DNA of 50,708 nt from a virus. Positions within the stretch are counted from its first letter, which is position 1; every line of letters begins with the position of its first letter. The position numbers and the translations under genes were made by a program. Where the stretch lies: positions 1 to 50,708 of IMG/VR virus record IMGVR_UViG_3300036766_000591; one strand, given 5' to 3'. Shown in pieces: positions 3,904 to 40,122 of this stretch. The notes beneath the pieces are model-generated. The model was not told the DNA's origin. It did no database searches and worked only from the letters and a program-made list of their open reading frames with translations.

Positions 3904-5582
3904 GCGGCCTCCAGTCCGAGCGGGATCTGAGCCTCGGCGTCACGGATGCGCCGCTCGGCGATGGCGACATAGGCCGCCTCGCGCTCGATACCCAAGAAGC
4001 GGCGGCCTTCCAGGACGCACGCGACGCCGGTCGTGCCGGAGCCCATGAAGGGGTCGAGGGCGAGGCCCTGCGGCGGGGTGACGAGCCTAACGAGCCAGCG
4101 CATGAGGTCAACCGGCTTCACGGTGGGATGGTGATTGCGACGCGGAATGTCTACCACTTCGCGGCCCGTCATCGGGTTGATTTTGTGGCCTTCGGCGCCT
4201 ATTAGGACCACCATAGCCTCGCCATCCAGCCCCGCCTCGCGTTCGGCGCGGGACGCCTTCGCGCAGTAGAAGAAGCGCGAGGCGCCGCCGGAGTCGCCAG
4301 AGAAGTGACCCGACCTCTCACCCATTCTCTCGCCCATGTCGGTAGCCCGGCCCTGCCGTATTCCTCCGGGCTGCTTTTCGCCGCTCACCAAGTTCCCGCT
4401 CTGCGCGTCGAGCATCGCCGCCGCGTCCCCGTCCAGCACGACGTTCGCGGGCCAGCGGCCACTAAGCGATGCAGATGCAGCTGTCTCGGCTCCAGTGGCA
4501 GACATCCGGTATCCATCATGAGAGTGCTTCGCAGGGTCGAATCGAGTCATTTCTGGCTTCCCCGCAATCCGGCACGCCTCGATGTTCAGCGCCCCCGTGC
4601 CGTGCGCCGCCACGTTCGCCGCCACCGTGCCGATGAGTGGCTTGCGCGCGAGGATGATCGGCAGCCAATCAGGCGAGAGGTTGCTTTCCTCCGGGCCGGT
4701 TGCCTCGTCGGCAAACCTCCCGATAGCAAGCTCGCCCGCAGTAGTGGAGGCGAGTCTTTCGCACTTGGCAACCACGCTTCTGGAAATACCGACCGCAAGC
4801 GACGCATCGGACGCGACGCCACTTGTCGCGCTCAAGTCCGCGGTGGTGAAGGCGTGCGTGATCCGCGATAGGCACGACCGCAAGATTCTCAGGTCGGTTG
4901 TCAGCGCGCTCGCCGTTGCGGTGGTGTACCTGCTCCTGGGGTCCAAGAGGGCGCCCAAGCATCCGTTCAGCGACGACGCGATGCTCAAGAGCCCAGACGT
5001 TAGGAGCAAGTCGGATGAAGGCGTACCCATCTTTGCGGATGAAACGACCGTGCATAGGGCCTCCCTTGTCGTGGGAGCCAATATAGCCAGTTCTTCCTGC
5101 TCTGACAAGGGTTTACGCGCTAGTATCACGGGCTCGTGTGCTGGCTTGAGCGCCGTGCCCCAACCCTTCCACTCGCCGTCGAGGTTCAGCGACTTCGGGA
5201 AGCCGGAGCCGTAGAGCCAGCACAGACAGTCGCGAATCTCCCAGCCCGCATCCTCGATAGCGCAGGTCAGGCGGTGGAAGGTGCGCGTCCCGCCGAAGGC
5301 CAAGAGGTGCGCGCCGGGCTTCGCCACGCGCAGCACCTCAGACCACGTCTCGATGCCAGGGATCTCGGAGTCCCATGACTGGCCCATGAAGCCGCCGCCG
5401 GTGCCGATGCGCGAGCGTCCAGCGGGTGACGCTTCATTGCGCGACGCTTCGCCGCTCCCGCCCTTCTTGTTGGCGGTTAAGGCATACGGTGGGTCACAGC
5501 AAACGGCGTCCACGCTGCCCGGTGCCAGCGTCCGCAGCACGTCCAAGCAATCGCCGTGGATCACCCTCGCACGGTCGCTCAC
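3900..5582 (-). CDS. DNA N4/N6-type methyltransferase carrying an in-frame HNH cassette
   Basis: 560 codons from a GTG at 5582 (GTGA overlap). The catalytic motif CCDPPYAL lies near residue 30 and the AdoMet-binding DPFMGSGTTG near the C-terminus. This is the beta-class order of amino-methyltransferases, which methylate adenine N6 or cytosine N4. The ordered core includes ALNIEACRI and a PTVKPVDLMRWL block. About 157 codons in the middle do not look like this family; they are Ser/Thr/Leu-rich low-complexity residues, and an HNH gene occupies another frame there. The family motif ILARKPL appears on both sides of that stretch, so the stretch is an insertion and the uninterrupted enzyme would be about 403 residues. 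Whether the read-through enzyme is active is not known. Confidence 0.85.
   Translation of the reverse strand: MSDRARVIHGDCLDVLRTLAPGSVDAVCCDPPYALTANKKGGSGEASRNEASPAGRSRIGTGGGFMGQSWDSEIPGIETWSEVLRVAKPGAHLLAFGGTRTFHRLTCAIEDAGWEIRDCLCWLYGSGFPKSLNLDGEWKGWGTALKPAHEPVILARKPLSEQEELAILAPTTREALCTVVSSAKMGTPSSDLLLTSGLLSIASSLNGCLGALLDPRSRYTTATASALTTDLRILRSCLSRITHAFTTADLSATSGVASDASLAVGISRSVVAKCERLASTTAGELAIGRFADEATGPEESNLSPDWLPIILARKPLIGTVAANVAAHGTGALNIEACRIAGKPEMTRFDPAKHSHDGYRMSATGAETAASASLSGRWPANVVLDGDAAAMLDAQSGNLVSGEKQPGGIRQGRATDMGERMGERSGHFSGDSGGASRFFYCAKASRAEREAGLDGEAMVVLIGAEGHKINPMTGREVVDIPRRNHHPTVKPVDLMRWLVRLVTPPQGLALDPFMGSGTTGVACVLEGRRFLGIEREAAYVAIAERRIRDAEAQIPLGLEAA
4669..5055 (-). CDS. HNH homing-type endonuclease nested in the methyltransferase
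   Basis: 128 residues. The HNH core is plain: LEHRVVAERMLGRPL, then VHHRNGERADNRPENL (the HH pair and the Asn of the HNH fold), then HARLHH. A C-terminal zinc module CVACG...YCGRACYREVC follows. Such enzymes nick or cut DNA at a specific site and spread their own gene. The ATG at 5055 follows AGGGAGG at optimal spacing, and a promoter lies 24 bases further up. It is read in a frame different from the host methyltransferase. The stop lies 14 bases before the downstream ILARKPL copy. Confidence 0.85.
   Translation of the reverse strand: MHGRFIRKDGYAFIRLAPNVWALEHRVVAERMLGRPLGPQEQVHHRNGERADNRPENLAVVPIADHARLHHRGLERDKWRRVRCVACGRYFQKRGCQVRKTRLHYCGRACYREVCRRGNRPGGKQPLA
5080..5108 (-). promoter_or_regulatory. 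Sigma70-type promoter of the nested HNH gene
   Basis: On the minus strand TTGTCA (5108-5103), a 17-base spacer and TATATT (5085-5080) stand upstream of the HNH ribosome binding site. The first half of the -35 box is the TTG Leu codon of the recoded ILARKPL copy, so the synonymous change also builds the promoter. Confidence 0.6.
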
Positions 5583-30543: not shown

Positions 30544-31438
30544 ACATGCAGGCCGAGAACGTGCTGTTGCACAGGCGGCGCTGCTCATCTGAGGGGTGCT
30601 GCTCACATCCGTTAACTGCAACTTCAAGCGGCACGGCCGAGCGGTGCAGGAACGTGTCGGGGAACTGCCGCTGTAGGCTCAACTCCAGCCGCACGGCGCG
30701 CTGAAAGTCGCCGGGAGCCCTTGCGGCCAATCGCCGCCAGTCTCCGGTCGTGCGGTGCGGACACATCCAACAGGACGTGCGCTCCGGGACGGGCCAGCCG
30801 GCGCTAGTGATGAGATCCACGCAAGCGGCGCGATCGAGGCCGCGCTCGATTAGCGGCCATCGCAACCGGACCCACTTGTTCTGGTCGGGTTTCGCGCGTT
30901 GCGTCTCATCGGCGGCAATGCCGATCCATTGCTCACAGGCACGCACTCCCCGCGCGCGCAGCCATCGCTTCGTCACCCTAGCCTTCCATGGGCCCGAGCA
31001 GCGCGTGCCGAGTTTCGCAATCGTGCCGTCTGCCTTGCGCCTGTAGGCGGGTATCACAAGGTGGTCGTTCTTGACTAGCACGTTGTCACCGTGATCCACG
31101 GTCTTGAGGATGGTTATGAGAACTCCAGCCTCGGCCAACTTCGGGGCCAGCACGGTCCTCGCGTAATCCCATGTAGTCTCGGGCTCGTAGCCCACGTCCA
31201 CCATGATGGCGTAGTCCGGCCTTGGCAACAAACCCTGGCAAATGAGCACCGCAACGGCGGTAGAATCGACCCCGCCTCCGCATGACCAAACAATCGTTCG
31301 GTCGCGCGTCCCGTTGCGCGCTTCAATGATCGCGCCTGTCGTTATGTTCGCGCAACCTTGTGAACAGTACCGCCGCCGCCTGTGCGTCGAAGCGAACTCG
31401 GCGCCACATTGCACGCGCTGACATACGAGCGTCATCAC
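30542..31438 (-). CDS. PAPS-reductase-like PP-loop protein with zinc fingers
   Basis: 298 residues. An N-terminal zinc module (CQRVQCG...CSQGC) is followed by the PP-loop VWSCGGGVDSTAVAVLICQG, an adenine nucleotide alpha hydrolase motif, then YAIMVDVGYEPETTWDYART and a late SCWMCPHRTTGDWRRL cysteine pair. Phages carry such proteins singly; relatives include PAPS reductases, DndC and QueC. The substrate cannot be told from sequence; DNA or tRNA thiolation is possible. It sits between HNH and terminase genes. The GTG at 31438 or the next codon ATG may start it. Confidence 0.8.
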   Translation of the reverse strand: MMTLVCQRVQCGAEFASTHRRRRYCSQGCANITTGAIIEARNGTRDRTIVWSCGGGVDSTAVAVLICQGLLPRPDYAIMVDVGYEPETTWDYARTVLAPKLAEAGVLITILKTVDHGDNVLVKNDHLVIPAYRRKADGTIAKLGTRCSGPWKARVTKRWLRARGVRACEQWIGIAADETQRAKPDQNKWVRLRWPLIERGLDRAACVDLITSAGWPVPERTSCWMCPHRTTGDWRRLAARAPGDFQRAVRLELSLQRQFPDTFLHRSAVPLEVAVNGCEQHPSDEQRRLCNSTFSACM

Positions 31439-36354: not shown

Positions 36355-37281
36355 CTACTCCTGTTCGATCTCGGTGATCTTCGCGCGCAGCGCCGCTGCC
36401 TGCTCGGCGTCGCCCGCCCGCTCGGCCTTCTCGGCATTCTGCCGCAGCGGGGCGGTTAGGGCGGCTGTCGCGGCGCTGCGGTCCACCTTCGTCAAGCGTT
36501 TCTCTCCGCTGCGCGAGGCGGCACCCGCGCGGCGATGCTCCTGGTCCTGCTCGAATGCGTCCAGCACGGCGCCCACGAAGTACCGGAGCGCGCGCGGCTG
36601 GGTGTTGCGCCCGTTAGGCCGGTAGGCACGGGCCTTCTCGGCGATGATGCGTTCGGCGAAGGCGATCGGCACGCCCGCCGCGGTGAGGTCGGCGGCAGCG
36701 GCATGCTGCGCGCTCGTCACCAGCTCGTTGAACTGCCCACCGAGGGCGGCAGCGAGCCCGCGGTTGGCGGCGACGGTACACCGCTGCGCGTAGGAAAGGC
36801 TGTCCGGGGATGGCTGTTGCGGTTCAGCGACAGTACCACCCTGCGGCTCGCGCGCGGCTGTTGCTTCTTCTGTCTCTGTCTCTGGCTTTGTTGAGCCGGG
36901 CTTAAGCCGGGCTTGAGCACTCCTCAAGCCCCCCTTGCGGCCGGATTCAGCGCGCCGCCCAGCCTCAAGTTGTTGGGCCTCCGCGATTTGCAGAAGTTTG
37001 GGATTGGCGAGACGCCCCTCGAGGGTCGGGTGCGGTTTGAAGCAGTCCTTGACCACTCCTCGCAAATCAGCCACTTCGACCGTTCCACCGAGTTCGCCGC
37101 TTGAAGCAAGCCTCAAGGAACGCTCAAGCCGGGCTTGACTCGCCGGGATGCTCCCTTCGAGCCACTGAAGACAGAGGAGCCGGAGGTAGACGCCCTGCTC
37201 GGCGAAGGTCATGGCGAGCACCTTCTCGTCGGTCATCCAGTCGCGGACGTAGAAGGGGAACCAGGCCAGCTTCTCGCTCAT
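36355..37281 (-). CDS. DUF1376 replication-associated protein
   Basis: 308 residues starting MSEKLAWFPFYVRDWMTDEK at 37281 (ATGA overlap). WFPFYVRDWMTDEKVLAMT followed by QGVYLRLLCLQWLEGSIPAS is the DUF1376 signature, found in YdaU-like phage proteins that act near replication initiation. Residues 110-170 form a polar linker. The C-terminal part has NPNGRNTQP-type and coiled-coil segments. It may load or guide a host helicase. Confidence 0.8.
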   Translation of the reverse strand: MSEKLAWFPFYVRDWMTDEKVLAMTFAEQGVYLRLLCLQWLEGSIPASQARLERSLRLASSGELGGTVEVADLRGVVKDCFKPHPTLEGRLANPKLLQIAEAQQLEAGRRAESGRKGGLRSAQARLKPGSTKPETETEEATAAREPQGGTVAEPQQPSPDSLSYAQRCTVAANRGLAAALGGQFNELVTSAQHAAAADLTAAGVPIAFAERIIAEKARAYRPNGRNTQPRALRYFVGAVLDAFEQDQEHRRAGAASRSGEKRLTKVDRSAATAALTAPLRQNAEKAERAGDAEQAAALRAKITEIEQE

Positions 37282-37517
37282 CGCGCGCCCTTCTTGCGGT
37301 TGCAACGCCGACACAGGATGGCCCAATTCGAGGCGTCGTCTGCCCCGCCGCGGGCAAGTGGAACGACGTGATCCACCTCGGGGAAGTTCGGCTCACTCAG
37401 CGCGGAGCGGCCGCTCTCGGCGGTGACCGACAGCGTGACGCCACACGCAGGGCACTTCCAGCCCGCGGCCTCGATGAGCCGGATCCATGTCCTGTGGTCG
37501 ATGTTCTTCCTTCTCAC
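37278..37517 (-). CDS. HNH endonuclease, small
   Basis: 79 residues from GTG at 37517. CPACGVTLSVTAESG then EVDHVVPLARGGADDASNW and ILCRRCNRKKGAR: a complete HNH fold with both zinc pairs and the DH...N...H order. It is coupled in both directions, so it is part of the operon rather than an independent cassette. Confidence 0.85.
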   Translation of the reverse strand: MRRKNIDHRTWIRLIEAAGWKCPACGVTLSVTAESGRSALSEPNFPEVDHVVPLARGGADDASNWAILCRRCNRKKGAR

Positions 37518-37804
37518 GCGGCCGTTCTCCTTCGCGTCTCGATCTTCCCGCGGAGCTCCGGGTAGCGGTCGAGCAGCTCGTCGCTGATGCGCGAGCGGTA
37601 GGAGTTGTCACAGTGGATCTTGAGCGCGCCGCGGGTTTGGGCGACGAGCAGGTTGACCTCTACCCGCTTGGCGCCGCTCCGCGCCAGCGCGATCGCGCGG
37701 ACGGCGACCGCCTCGAAGACCCGCTCGCCCTCGTCGCTGGCGCGCCAGCGCGCATAACGTTGCGACAGCGCGTCGCGGAGCGGGAGCGCGAGCTGCGCGG
37801 TCAC
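37514..37804 (-). CDS. Conserved hypothetical phage protein
   Basis: 96 residues from GTG at 37804 (GTGA). RVEVNLLVAQTRGALKIHCD, then NSYRSRISDELLDRYPELRG. The pattern of a short 'N-S-x-R' segment followed by R-Y-P-E-L is familiar from early proteins of many siphophages. Role unknown. Confidence 0.65.
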   Translation of the reverse strand: MTAQLALPLRDALSQRYARWRASDEGERVFEAVAVRAIALARSGAKRVEVNLLVAQTRGALKIHCDNSYRSRISDELLDRYPELRGKIETRRRTAA

Positions 37805-39255
37805 GCGGCACCTTCGATCTGGTCGATGGCCGCGAAGATGGCCCACGCCACGGCGGGCACGATGGCGTTTCCGACGAGACGGCATCCCGCCGCGCGGTTG
37901 GGCATCCCGCTCACGACGGGCCAGCGATTCTCGCAGCCGCCACCGAACGCAAAGGCTTCCACGATGTTGTCGCTTTCACGCGACCGGGAATAGTCCAACC
38001 AAGCTTCCATTGCCTGTGGTGCCAGCGCATGTGGCAGGGCCCGCACACGACCTGCAAGTTCTGCCGCGCGCTGTTCGCGGGATCGCCATCCATGTGATGG
38101 ACTTGGAGTCCCGCAGTAGCGGCACAGACTTCGCATTTCTCCAGCCTGCCCACCGTCTGTCGCGCGATGGTCTTCCACCGCCCATAACTGCGTACCGGAC
38201 GGGAATTCGCGCACGAAAGCGAGCAGAACCGCCTCCGCCGAAAGACACCGTAGTCCTCCAGTCGGCCACTGATCCGCTTGCGCGTCATCGGCACACCGCA
38301 CCACTGGCAGGGCTTCAAAGGCGCTGGCTTCACTGGCATGGGCACCTAACGCCGTCCTTTCTTCTGGCGGAGATACACGACATTCAACCAGCCAGCGGGA
38401 AAACCCATCAACCAAGCTCCGAAATTGGGATTGTACGCCGCCCGCTGGCCCGTCGGTTTCGCCGTCGCCGCCGCTAAGCTGAGGTTGTGATTGCCCTTGA
38501 TCCCCTCGAACGCCTTCACCTCGCCCGGCTTCGGCGGGGACGAGCCTAACGGTGCCATCCGCCCCTCGGATGGCAACGGCGTCGGCCCAAGGCGCGAGAA
38601 GTTGACCGATTGTCGGCCCAGCAGCGCATTCTCTAGCACGCCTGCCACACTCGCTCCGTCCTTCCCGTCCCGCGTCGTCGGCGTCGCCCAACCCGCTAGC
38701 GCGTCCTCCAGTTTCCGTATCCCGCCGACCAGCGTCTTCCGCTCTGCCTGGCCACCCCCCGTTGGCGTCTTGGGCGTGGGCCACGATCCAGACCCGTTCC
38801 CGGCGGTGGGGGGCACCAACGTCGGCCGCGGCGACACTGTCCCACGTCGCATCGTACCCGAGGCGGGCCAGGTCTGAGAGAACTTCGCCGAACGCACATC
38901 CGTCGTTGACGGAAAGCAGTCCAGGGACATTCTCGAAAAGGCACCAGCGGGGTCGAAGCTCCCCAACGCATCGGGCGACTGCGGGCCAGAGCCATCGGCT
39001 ATCGCTCGTGCCCAACCGTCGGCCAGCGTGGGAAGCGGGCTGGCAGGGGAAGCCGCCAGCGAGGATGTCGGGTCGCTCAACGCTGCTCCAGTCCACCGTA
39101 GTGAGGTCGCCCACGTTCCGCGCCTCGGGGAAATGATGTGCCATGACCCGACACGCCCACGGCTCGATCTCCGAGTACCATGCCGTCGTCCAGCCTAACT
39201 GACGGGCCGCGAGATCGAAGCCTCCTTGGCCTGCACACAGCGAACCCAGCCTCAC
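37801..39255 (-). CDS. C5 cytosine DNA methyltransferase, carrying a nested HNH gene
   Basis: 484 residues from GTG at 39255. Motif I is GSLCAGQGGFDLAARQLGW, motif IV GGFPCQPASHAG with the catalytic Cys, motif VI LFENVPGLL, motif VIII VGAPHRRERVWIVAH, and motifs IX-X NRAAGCRLVGNAIVPAVAW near the end. The stretch between VIII and IX is unusually long, Asp/Gly/Arg-rich and low-complexity. About 390 bases of it are occupied by an HNH gene in another frame, and a further 244-codon ORF overlaps the middle. Methylates cytosine, probably against host restriction. Confidence 0.85.
   Translation of the reverse strand: MRLGSLCAGQGGFDLAARQLGWTTAWYSEIEPWACRVMAHHFPEARNVGDLTTVDWSSVERPDILAGGFPCQPASHAGRRLGTSDSRWLWPAVARCVGELRPRWCLFENVPGLLSVNDGCAFGEVLSDLARLGYDATWDSVAAADVGAPHRRERVWIVAHAQDANGGWPGRAEDAGRRDTETGGRASGLGDADDAGREGRSECGRRARECAAGPTIGQLLAPWADAVAIRGADGTVRLVPAEAGRGEGVRGDQGQSQPQLSGGDGETDGPAGGVQSQFRSLVDGFSRWLVECRVSPPEERTALGAHASEASAFEALPVVRCADDAQADQWPTGGLRCLSAEAVLLAFVREFPSGTQLWAVEDHRATDGGQAGEMRSLCRYCGTPSPSHGWRSREQRAAELAGRVRALPHALAPQAMEAWLDYSRSRESDNIVEAFAFGGGCENRWPVVSGMPNRAAGCRLVGNAIVPAVAWAIFAAIDQIEGAA
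37911..38345 (-). CDS. HNH endonuclease nested in the C5 methyltransferase
   Basis: 144 residues from GTG at 38345 with AAAGGA upstream. N-terminal zinc pairs (CQWCG, FCSLSCANSR), then CEVCAATAGLQVHHMDGDPA with the HH pair, NLQVVCGPCHMRWHHR, and a WTIPGR tail. A typical homing-type HNH. Its last 25 or so codons lie over methyltransferase coding sequence, so the enzyme's tail is supplied by the target. Flanking CAACCA sequences (37996-38001 and 38385-38390) suggest the insertion edges. Confidence 0.85.
   Translation of the reverse strand: MPMPVKPAPLKPCQWCGVPMTRKRISGRLEDYGVFRRRRFCSLSCANSRPVRSYGRWKTIARQTVGRLEKCEVCAATAGLQVHHMDGDPANSARQNLQVVCGPCHMRWHHRQWKLGWTIPGRVKATTSWKPLRSVAAARIAGPS
38346..39080 (-). 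CDS. Second-frame ORF overlapping the C5 methyltransferase (LMGFP type)
   Basis: 244 residues in a different frame of the methyltransferase gene. Its middle has SWPTPKTPTGGGQAE and WATPTTRDGKDGAS, and it ends NPNFGAWLMGFPAGWLNVVY. The PTP repeats and the final L-M-G-F-P-x-G-W are characteristic of a protein type found with phage cytosine methyltransferases. So both frames look family-conserved. It ends directly at the nested HNH start (TAG then GTG). Joined across the HNH insert at the CAACCA repeats, this frame would run on into motifs IX-X. Start codon uncertain. Confidence 0.55.
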   Translation of the reverse strand: MSDPTSSLAASPASPLPTLADGWARAIADGSGPQSPDALGSFDPAGAFSRMSLDCFPSTTDVRSAKFSQTWPASGTMRRGTVSPRPTLVPPTAGNGSGSWPTPKTPTGGGQAERKTLVGGIRKLEDALAGWATPTTRDGKDGASVAGVLENALLGRQSVNFSRLGPTPLPSEGRMAPLGSSPPKPGEVKAFEGIKGNHNLSLAAATAKPTGQRAAYNPNFGAWLMGFPAGWLNVVYLRQKKGRR

Positions 39256-39457: not shown

Positions 39458-39724
39458 TCATAGTCCCCCTGCGCTGGGCCGGAAGCCCCTGCGCCGCGCG
39501 CGGCAGTCGGCGCACAGCCCGCAGCGGCAGGCGAACGTGAGCGGCGGGGTGACGTGCTCAGTCCAGCGCGCCACGCGGGGTTCGGGCGCCGTGGGCCACG
39601 CGGGGAGCGGCTTCCCCCACCGCACGGCGTTCCCGCGGGCGGCGCGCGTGCGACCGAGGCACGCCTTCGAGCAGAAGCCGTGCCAGCCGGGGAGCGGGGC
39701 GTTGCCGCAGGGGCAGAGGGTCAC
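39458..39724 (-). CDS. Cysteine-rich zinc protein
   Basis: 88 residues from GTG at 39724 (GTGA). CPCG, then CSKACLGR, then near the end CRCGLCADCRARRRG: eight Cys in three groups that could hold two zinc ions. Basic C-terminus. Directly downstream of an HNH gene and translationally coupled to it. Confidence 0.65.
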   Translation of the reverse strand: MTLCPCGNAPLPGWHGFCSKACLGRTRAARGNAVRWGKPLPAWPTAPEPRVARWTEHVTPPLTFACRCGLCADCRARRRGFRPSAGGL

Positions 39725-40122
39725 GCGGCCACCCGTAGCGCCTCGCGCCGCTCCTCGCGCACCAGTTCCCGCTCGTAGCGGTCTACGTGCCGCTGCATCC
39801 ACGGCGTGTGCGGAAAGGCGTACTCCTGATACCACGCGACGCGCCCCTGAATCTGGAGGTGGCAGACCTGACAGAGCGCCGCGAGGTTCCAGAGCCGCAC
39901 CTCCGACTTGTCGCCGTCGAGGTGATGGCACGTCAGGACGCGCATCTTCCCGTCGCCGATGCCGGGATGGGTGCAGTGCTCGTCACACGGCAGATTCCAG
40001 TCGGGTGTGTGCGGCTTCGACGGGTGGTGGCACCGCTCGCAGCGGTAGCCGTTCATGCGGCGCACGCGCTCGGCGATCTGCGGCCAGCGGGCCGGGTACG
40101 CGCCGACGTTCTCGTTCCTCAC
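39721..40122 (-). CDS. HNH endonuclease
   Basis: 133 residues from GTG at 40122. CERCHHPSKPHTPDW then CDEHC, and the core VLTCHHLDGDKSEVRLWNLA with CQVCHLQIQGRV. A complete HNH fold with an enlarged zinc region. It is coupled to both neighbours, so it looks like a settled operon member. C-terminus basic and helical. Confidence 0.85.
   Translation of the reverse strand: MRNENVGAYPARWPQIAERVRRMNGYRCERCHHPSKPHTPDWNLPCDEHCTHPGIGDGKMRVLTCHHLDGDKSEVRLWNLAALCQVCHLQIQGRVAWYQEYAFPHTPWMQRHVDRYERELVREERREALRVAA

Follow-up and report, generated by a model that had tools for sequence, protein, structure and literature searches.

The small polypeptide of the methyltransferase (MTase) M.EcoHK31I is encoded, as Lee et al. 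reportedly described in 1995, in another frame inside the large one. The large polypeptide of this enzyme (YGGCCR) carries motifs I-VIII and X and has been assigned the TRD, and the small one carries motif IX (PMC3404938). In split C5 MTases of the M.AquI type, the core is found on one polypeptide and the distal motifs on another (PMC3404938). The mycobacteriophage ShiLan provides a further described system, in which the phage methylase gp65 holds a hidden out-of-frame HNH gene; its authors could discern no ribosome-binding site and proposed that translation begins without a leader (PMC11855218).

Here we describe a C5 cytosine MTase locus in a window of bacterial virus DNA, the window being the whole stretch of 50,708 nucleotides that was analysed (GC 68%). 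All genes of the locus are on the minus strand. A second frame, here named f2, and an HNH gene are both read in the +1 frame of the MTase, whose own frame we call alpha. The features are as follows.

37801..39255, minus strand: C5 cytosine MTase frame (alpha), GTG start at 39255, stop at 37801, 484 codons, motifs I-VIII and X, open through the HNH insertion
39086..39089, minus strand: possible Shine-Dalgarno GGAG for f2, 5 bases ahead of TTG 39080, weak (4 bases only)
38346..39080, minus strand: f2, nested gene in the +1 frame of the MTase, TTG start at 39080, 244 codons, beta-like, with a WPTP region and the motif-IX-like LMGFPAGW
38388..38411, minus strand: f2 LMGFPAGW codons, motif-IX-like, 5' copy of a duplicated target segment, MTase-frame reading DGFSRWL
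37911..38387, minus strand: inserted element (substitute f2 tail, stop, HNH gene), judged from relatives, edges approximate
38355..38359, minus strand: AAGGA within the f2 tail, 9 bases ahead of the HNH GTG 38345
37911..38345, minus strand: HNH endonuclease gene in the frame of f2, GTG directly after the f2 TAG
37888..37917, minus strand: 3' target-segment copy, VVSGMPNRAA in the MTase frame, no longer readable as f2
37855..37872, minus strand: motif X (GNAIVP), MTase frame

This layout confirms what the original prediction had read at the locus, namely an MTase frame open for 484 codons (GTG 39255 to the stop at 37801) and a second frame of 244 codons (39080-38346) that passes through TAG-GTG into an HNH ORF without a change of frame (38345-37911). 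The f2 protein of the window ends in NPNFGAWLMGFPAGW, followed by 13 residues and the TAG, and its start is uncertain (TTG with a 4-base Shine-Dalgarno). Two further HNH genes flank the locus (37278-37517 and 39721-40110, both minus strand; Pfam HNH, E 8e-13; PHROG 1571, E 1e-11), and the window holds at least four HNH genes. Elsewhere the phage encodes a phosphoadenosine phosphosulfate reductase-like gene (PHROG 424) at 30545-31438 and a RecT-family protein at 2233-2955, both on the minus strand.

At 68% GC, and with an equally long +1 open frame arising in 16% of synonymous shuffles of the MTase frame (p = 0.16), the window alone cannot decide whether f2 is a gene. The shuffle result, together with the omission of f2 by many annotators, would suit a reading in which the second frame is a shadow of the GC-rich, repetitive MTase linker, where ADAD read one base on gives WPTP, and no f2 protein exists. 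Relatives of f2 were gathered by a pattern search built on f2, which returned 80 viral loci; a wide alignment of f2 proved too diverse to yield a pattern, and a scan of genome contigs gave one locus. In 80 of the 80 fetched phage loci, f2 lies in the +1 frame of the MTase ORF, with an overlap of 133-508 codons. With the window added (81 loci), the +1 open run went beyond synonymous shuffles at p<0.01 in 58 loci, and the +2 frame did so in 0/81. Against the shadow reading, relatives at 44-55% GC are open far beyond shuffles in the f2 frame and not in the other, and homologues have been annotated as genes in their own right: the record of Paenibacillus phage Shelly lists gp56 (f2) separately as 'g55 internal gene'. 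Cultured phages have f2 as well, Shelly among them, and the same nesting is found at 44-52% GC in Lacticaseibacillus phage R23.9, phage C72C1 and a Leptospira plasmid.

We compared substitutions by codon position in 30 pairs of related loci. Substitutions at positions 1, 2 and 3 of the MTase frame showed the normal pattern ahead of motif IV (0.18, 0.12 and 0.44) and past the f2 stop (0.11, 0.09 and 0.51), and the pattern was reversed from motif VIII to the end of f2 (0.22, 0.07 and 0.15). Dividing third by first position gave 2.46 ahead of motif IV, 0.69 within the core overlap and 4.87 past the f2 stop. The third positions of the MTase are the second positions of f2, and they are protected only within the overlap, which we read as purifying selection acting there more strongly on f2 than on the MTase frame. 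This codon-position signature already contradicts the shadow reading, which we regard as very unlikely, and f2 is a real nested gene, coding under selection. The original prediction had named two findings that would speak against such a gene. Relatives keep f2 open, with no littering by stops, and LMGFP is not the MTase C-terminus displaced by a sequencing frameshift, an explanation ruled out by the recurrence of the arrangement in 80 loci. No earlier description of the f2 overlap was found in the literature searched, which left out most subscription journals. If this reading is right, annotators routinely overlook half the coding of a common phage MTase, and where the frames overlap it is the overlooked one, f2, that is under more constraint.

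The domain content of the two frames was then considered. Alpha matches PHROG 363 over residues 1-482 (E 1.9e-69), and its sole Pfam domain, PF00145, covers residues 1-165 (E 1.7e-41), the alignment ending at profile position 166 of 324. In the overlapping MTases checked, PF00145 spans motifs I-VIII only, whereas it matches much further in a classical relative with motif IX in frame. The AF2 model of alpha is confident for the core at residues 1-165 (pLDDT above 90), which resembles M.HhaI (Foldseek E 1.2e-15), and for the motif X helix, and is mostly of low confidence over residues 167-458. TRD, motif IX and motif X do not stand together on one polypeptide: motif X is in the MTase frame and the motif-IX-like segment is in f2, which carries LNPxWVEWLMGFPxGW at the position of motif IX.

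f2 matches PHROG 1008 over residues 6-233 (E 2.6e-22) and has no Pfam match. By hhalign (99.8%, E 1.9e-30), it is homologous to mycobacteriophage proteins with an LMGWP motif that shares the frame of motif X and stands shortly ahead of it. In Mycobacterium phage Twister, the f2 homologue gp78 has MMGWPEGW (LMGWPxxW-like) immediately ahead of motif X in one frame, and it follows an MTase (gp79) that stops after motif VIII. From this position and homology, f2 may act as a motif-IX-like beta subunit. Since M.EcoHK31I splits its motifs between two polypeptides and f2 has its motif at the position of IX, we propose by analogy that alpha and f2 could form a heterodimer, a two-polypeptide enzyme.

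Alternatively, f2 could be a real gene that overprints the MTase and has no part in methylation (it might, for example, serve counter-defence), with alpha working alone. This fits with alpha holding both the core and motif X, with the direct profile comparison of f2 with the classical motif IX, which was not significant, and with the lack of a confident fold for f2, whose AF2 model is unreliable (pLDDT 56) and whose profile search against the PDB gave chance hits only. We consider it unlikely, while giving it some weight, as f2 is always tied to an MTase and its homologues have motif X in frame after LMGWP and, in Twister, follow an MTase ending at motif VIII.

The division between alpha and f2 that we favour is not universal, because in Geralt and ShiLan (gp70) the MTase frame itself takes in part of the f2-type region. 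In these mycobacteriophages (L006 1202-3352 and L205 6185-7510), the C5 MTase and motif X share their frame with the PTP/MMGWP half, and the first half of the f2-type protein is still read in the +1 frame. This intermediate layout could involve a change of frame. At another locus (L038 3851-6712), the C5 MTase is broken right after GGFPC by an apparent intein, with a long +1 f2-type ORF downstream. Endonuclease VII-like genes directly follow the nested pair at L004 2595-3053 and L030 4400-4903, one in Klebsiella virus KpV2811 and one in an environmental phage; at L004 the f2 frame enters the gene without a stop.

Phages with the empty site were found, and these 87 unoccupied relatives bear on the insertion edge. 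In 83 of them exactly 6 codons separate the f2 Trp from the Gly-Asn that follows it, in the MTase frame, as part of motif X. There the two frames share a segment of about 30 bases, translated as (W)LMGFPxGWTDL in f2 and as VAHGxPxRVDRL in the MTase frame. At occupied loci, the distance from the f2 Trp to the Gly-Asn is 140-206 codons (171 in the window), and most of these loci have a second MTase-reading copy of the segment five residues before the Gly-Asn (VVSGMPNRAA in the window). At L126, L124, L127, L137 and L039, MG(F/Y)PxxW can still be read from the 3' copy in the frame of f2, though f2 had ended upstream with a copy of its own; L126 has LLMGFPPGWTEI-stop upstream of the HNH and WLMGYPSGWTDLNV-stop downstream. 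Given that both copies are still readable at these five loci, the target segment has been duplicated, the 5' copy now serving f2 and the 3' copy serving the MTase. The duplication illustrates how a site coding in two frames can separate into two sites that each code in one.

The original prediction had offered two excisions, of 389 bases between CAACCA words and of 393 bases between TGGCTG and TGGTTG. Both spacings were measured as claimed. Neither is the true edge, because relatives show the duplicated target and the HNH stop falls just inside the start of the 3' copy, within its first few codons and 41-44 bases ahead of the Gly-Asn (window, L039, L040, L125 and L137); the 3' TGGTTG word is inside the element. 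The repeat words are therefore not insertion edges, and the duplicated target segment is the real structure. The further idea, that the edge would decide which ancestral protein owned the C-terminus, is wrong: the two frames are already together in 83/87 empty sites, and this fixed 6-codon spacing places both before the insertion. On this comparison, LMGFP already belonged to f2 when the element arrived, and motif X has been in the MTase frame all along.

The HNH of the window has the pattern RKR.NGRLED..F.RRRFCSLSCAN, then HH..N..CH, and its matches to the Pfam HNH families fall below the gathering cut-off. Residues H83, H84 and N96 and C71, C74, C101, C104, H105 and H109 are invariant in the HNH alignment (catalytic residues and zinc Cys pairs). 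The fetched phage loci contain 26 further members of its subfamily, each with a host frame that stays open over the length of the HNH. We counted stops at the 25 shufflable loci, window included, and took the expectation from synonymous shuffles of the HNH. The host frame had 0 stops where 119.5 were expected, and the other frame had 112 (99 expected); unrelated control HNHs had 120 in the same frame (130 expected). The HNH-bearing loci range from 35% to 66% GC and include the low-GC Staphylococcus phage CUB-EPI_14. The cultured Komagataeibacter phage phiKX1 has the HNH together with the nested pair. In the window itself, openness of the MTase frame across the HNH is only weakly beyond chance (p = 0.03). 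The claim that the arrangement is unlikely to be chance thus held for f2 and for the open host frame across relatives, and it did not hold for the window by itself (p 0.16 and 0.03).

These counts also bear on whether the insertion inactivated the enzyme and left f2 and the MTase decaying, with the open frames as remnants. A loop of about 160 residues in alpha between the TRD region and motif X would suit such decay, as would the 3' copy of the window, which has no f2 reading. Yet zero host-frame stops in 25 divergent loci down to 35% GC require continuing selection, and motif X is intact past the insert in most loci; we find decay improbable. We infer instead that alpha tolerates the loop of about 160 residues.

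Most HNHs of the subfamily are placed between the LMGFPxxW of f2 and motif X. At L128, L133, L135 and L136, the HNH sits at the same point of a gene with an LMGFPxxW-type motif in frame with motif X, and at L041 and L142 it lies inside classical C5 MTases, upstream of motif IX. HNH and MTase identities are poorly correlated (rho 0.19), and the distribution is disjunct, with 0/87 f2-fetched loci occupied and 26 occupied loci scattered. These features suggest that the HNH may be a homing element at the C5 locus. Counting against active homing, the nearest relatives of the window HNH in the comparison with the MTases reach no more than 49% identity. A self-splicing intron or intein carrying the HNH would also show a disjunct distribution, and HNH genes are often intron-borne. 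It was rejected for an intron, as the insert has no Rfam match and its RNA folding is ordinary (z 0.15). Moreover, the HNH ORF occupies nearly the whole insert, an open host frame is needless for an intron, and Pfam gives no intein domain in the MTase frame, leaving the intron or intein hardly credible.

The HNH starts 0-2 codons past the f2 stop in most nested loci, several being a stop followed directly by ATG, and AAGGA or AAGGAGG is often found inside the f2 tail codons (..SRRK-stop). These stop-start junctions and the Shine-Dalgarno in the f2 tail suggest translational coupling. If so, the open question of how translation reaches the HNH genes hidden in methylases would have a concrete answer.

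We consider the following explanation probable: an overlapping-frame, two-polypeptide C5 MTase into which a selfish HNH element was inserted between motif IX of beta and motif X of alpha. Alpha, the long frame, would supply the catalytic core with motifs I-VIII and X, and f2, the beta-like +1 frame, the WPTP region and the motif-IX-like LMGFPxGW; by analogy with M.EcoHK31I, the two would have to assemble for activity. The element would enter between beta IX and alpha X, bringing a substitute beta end (IX codons, a short basic tail and a stop) along with the HNH gene, and would leave alpha free of stops, so that alpha would be made with its extra loop. Beta and the HNH would both be translated from the +1 frame, with the HNH reinitiating at the beta stop, helped by the Shine-Dalgarno inside the beta tail. 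Once the HNH had cut the empty site, whose double coding keeps its DNA conserved, homing would ensue. The computation itself shows that f2 codes under selection and that alpha stays open, and it shows the insertion site with its duplication, the empty alleles and the stop-start junction; the heterodimer, the part played by f2, the tolerated loop, coupling and homing are interpretation. We lean, more cautiously, towards a wider picture of a phage-wide nested-beta family and an HNH lineage adapted to its doubly coded IX/X junction, supplying the beta end, keeping alpha open and coupling translation. The selfish gene would then occupy the very spot at which the coding of two host proteins is superimposed, and M.EcoHK31I, the single biochemical precedent, would become a widespread design with a testable function. 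The parts are already known; their combination is unusual.

Compared with M.EcoHK31I, the window locus likewise has motifs I-VIII and X on the large polypeptide, here alpha, and a small gene nested in another frame, a likeness of layout; it differs in being a phage gene and in the WPTP repeats of f2. Twister gp79/gp78 resembles an M.AquI-type split, whereas the window has motif X on its large polypeptide and an f2 gene that lies wholly inside alpha. PHROG 1008 ('DNA methyltransferase'), which f2 matches, is known only as a profile, and its description does not include nested coding. With ShiLan gp65, the locus shares an other-frame HNH in a phage methylase, a stop-free host frame, the absence of an intron or intein signature, a disjunct distribution and target similarity at both ends. 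As the original prediction had noted, the window has a second MTase with an out-of-frame HNH: an N6/N4 MTase (PF01555; 3903-5762, minus strand) is open across an HNH_3 gene (4669-5055, minus strand). This HNH is 39% identical to that of ShiLan (E 1e-22) at a corresponding site, and the MTase also matches gp65, so the phage carries a ShiLan-type element besides the one at the C5 locus. The host of the latter is a C5 MTase and not, like gp65, a DPPY-type methylase; the ShiLan HNH belongs to another family (E 0.05), and the C5-locus HNH adjoins a second host ORF, f2, with a Shine-Dalgarno and a stop-start junction. By these comparisons, the C5-locus element differs from the published ShiLan case in both its HNH family and its host gene.
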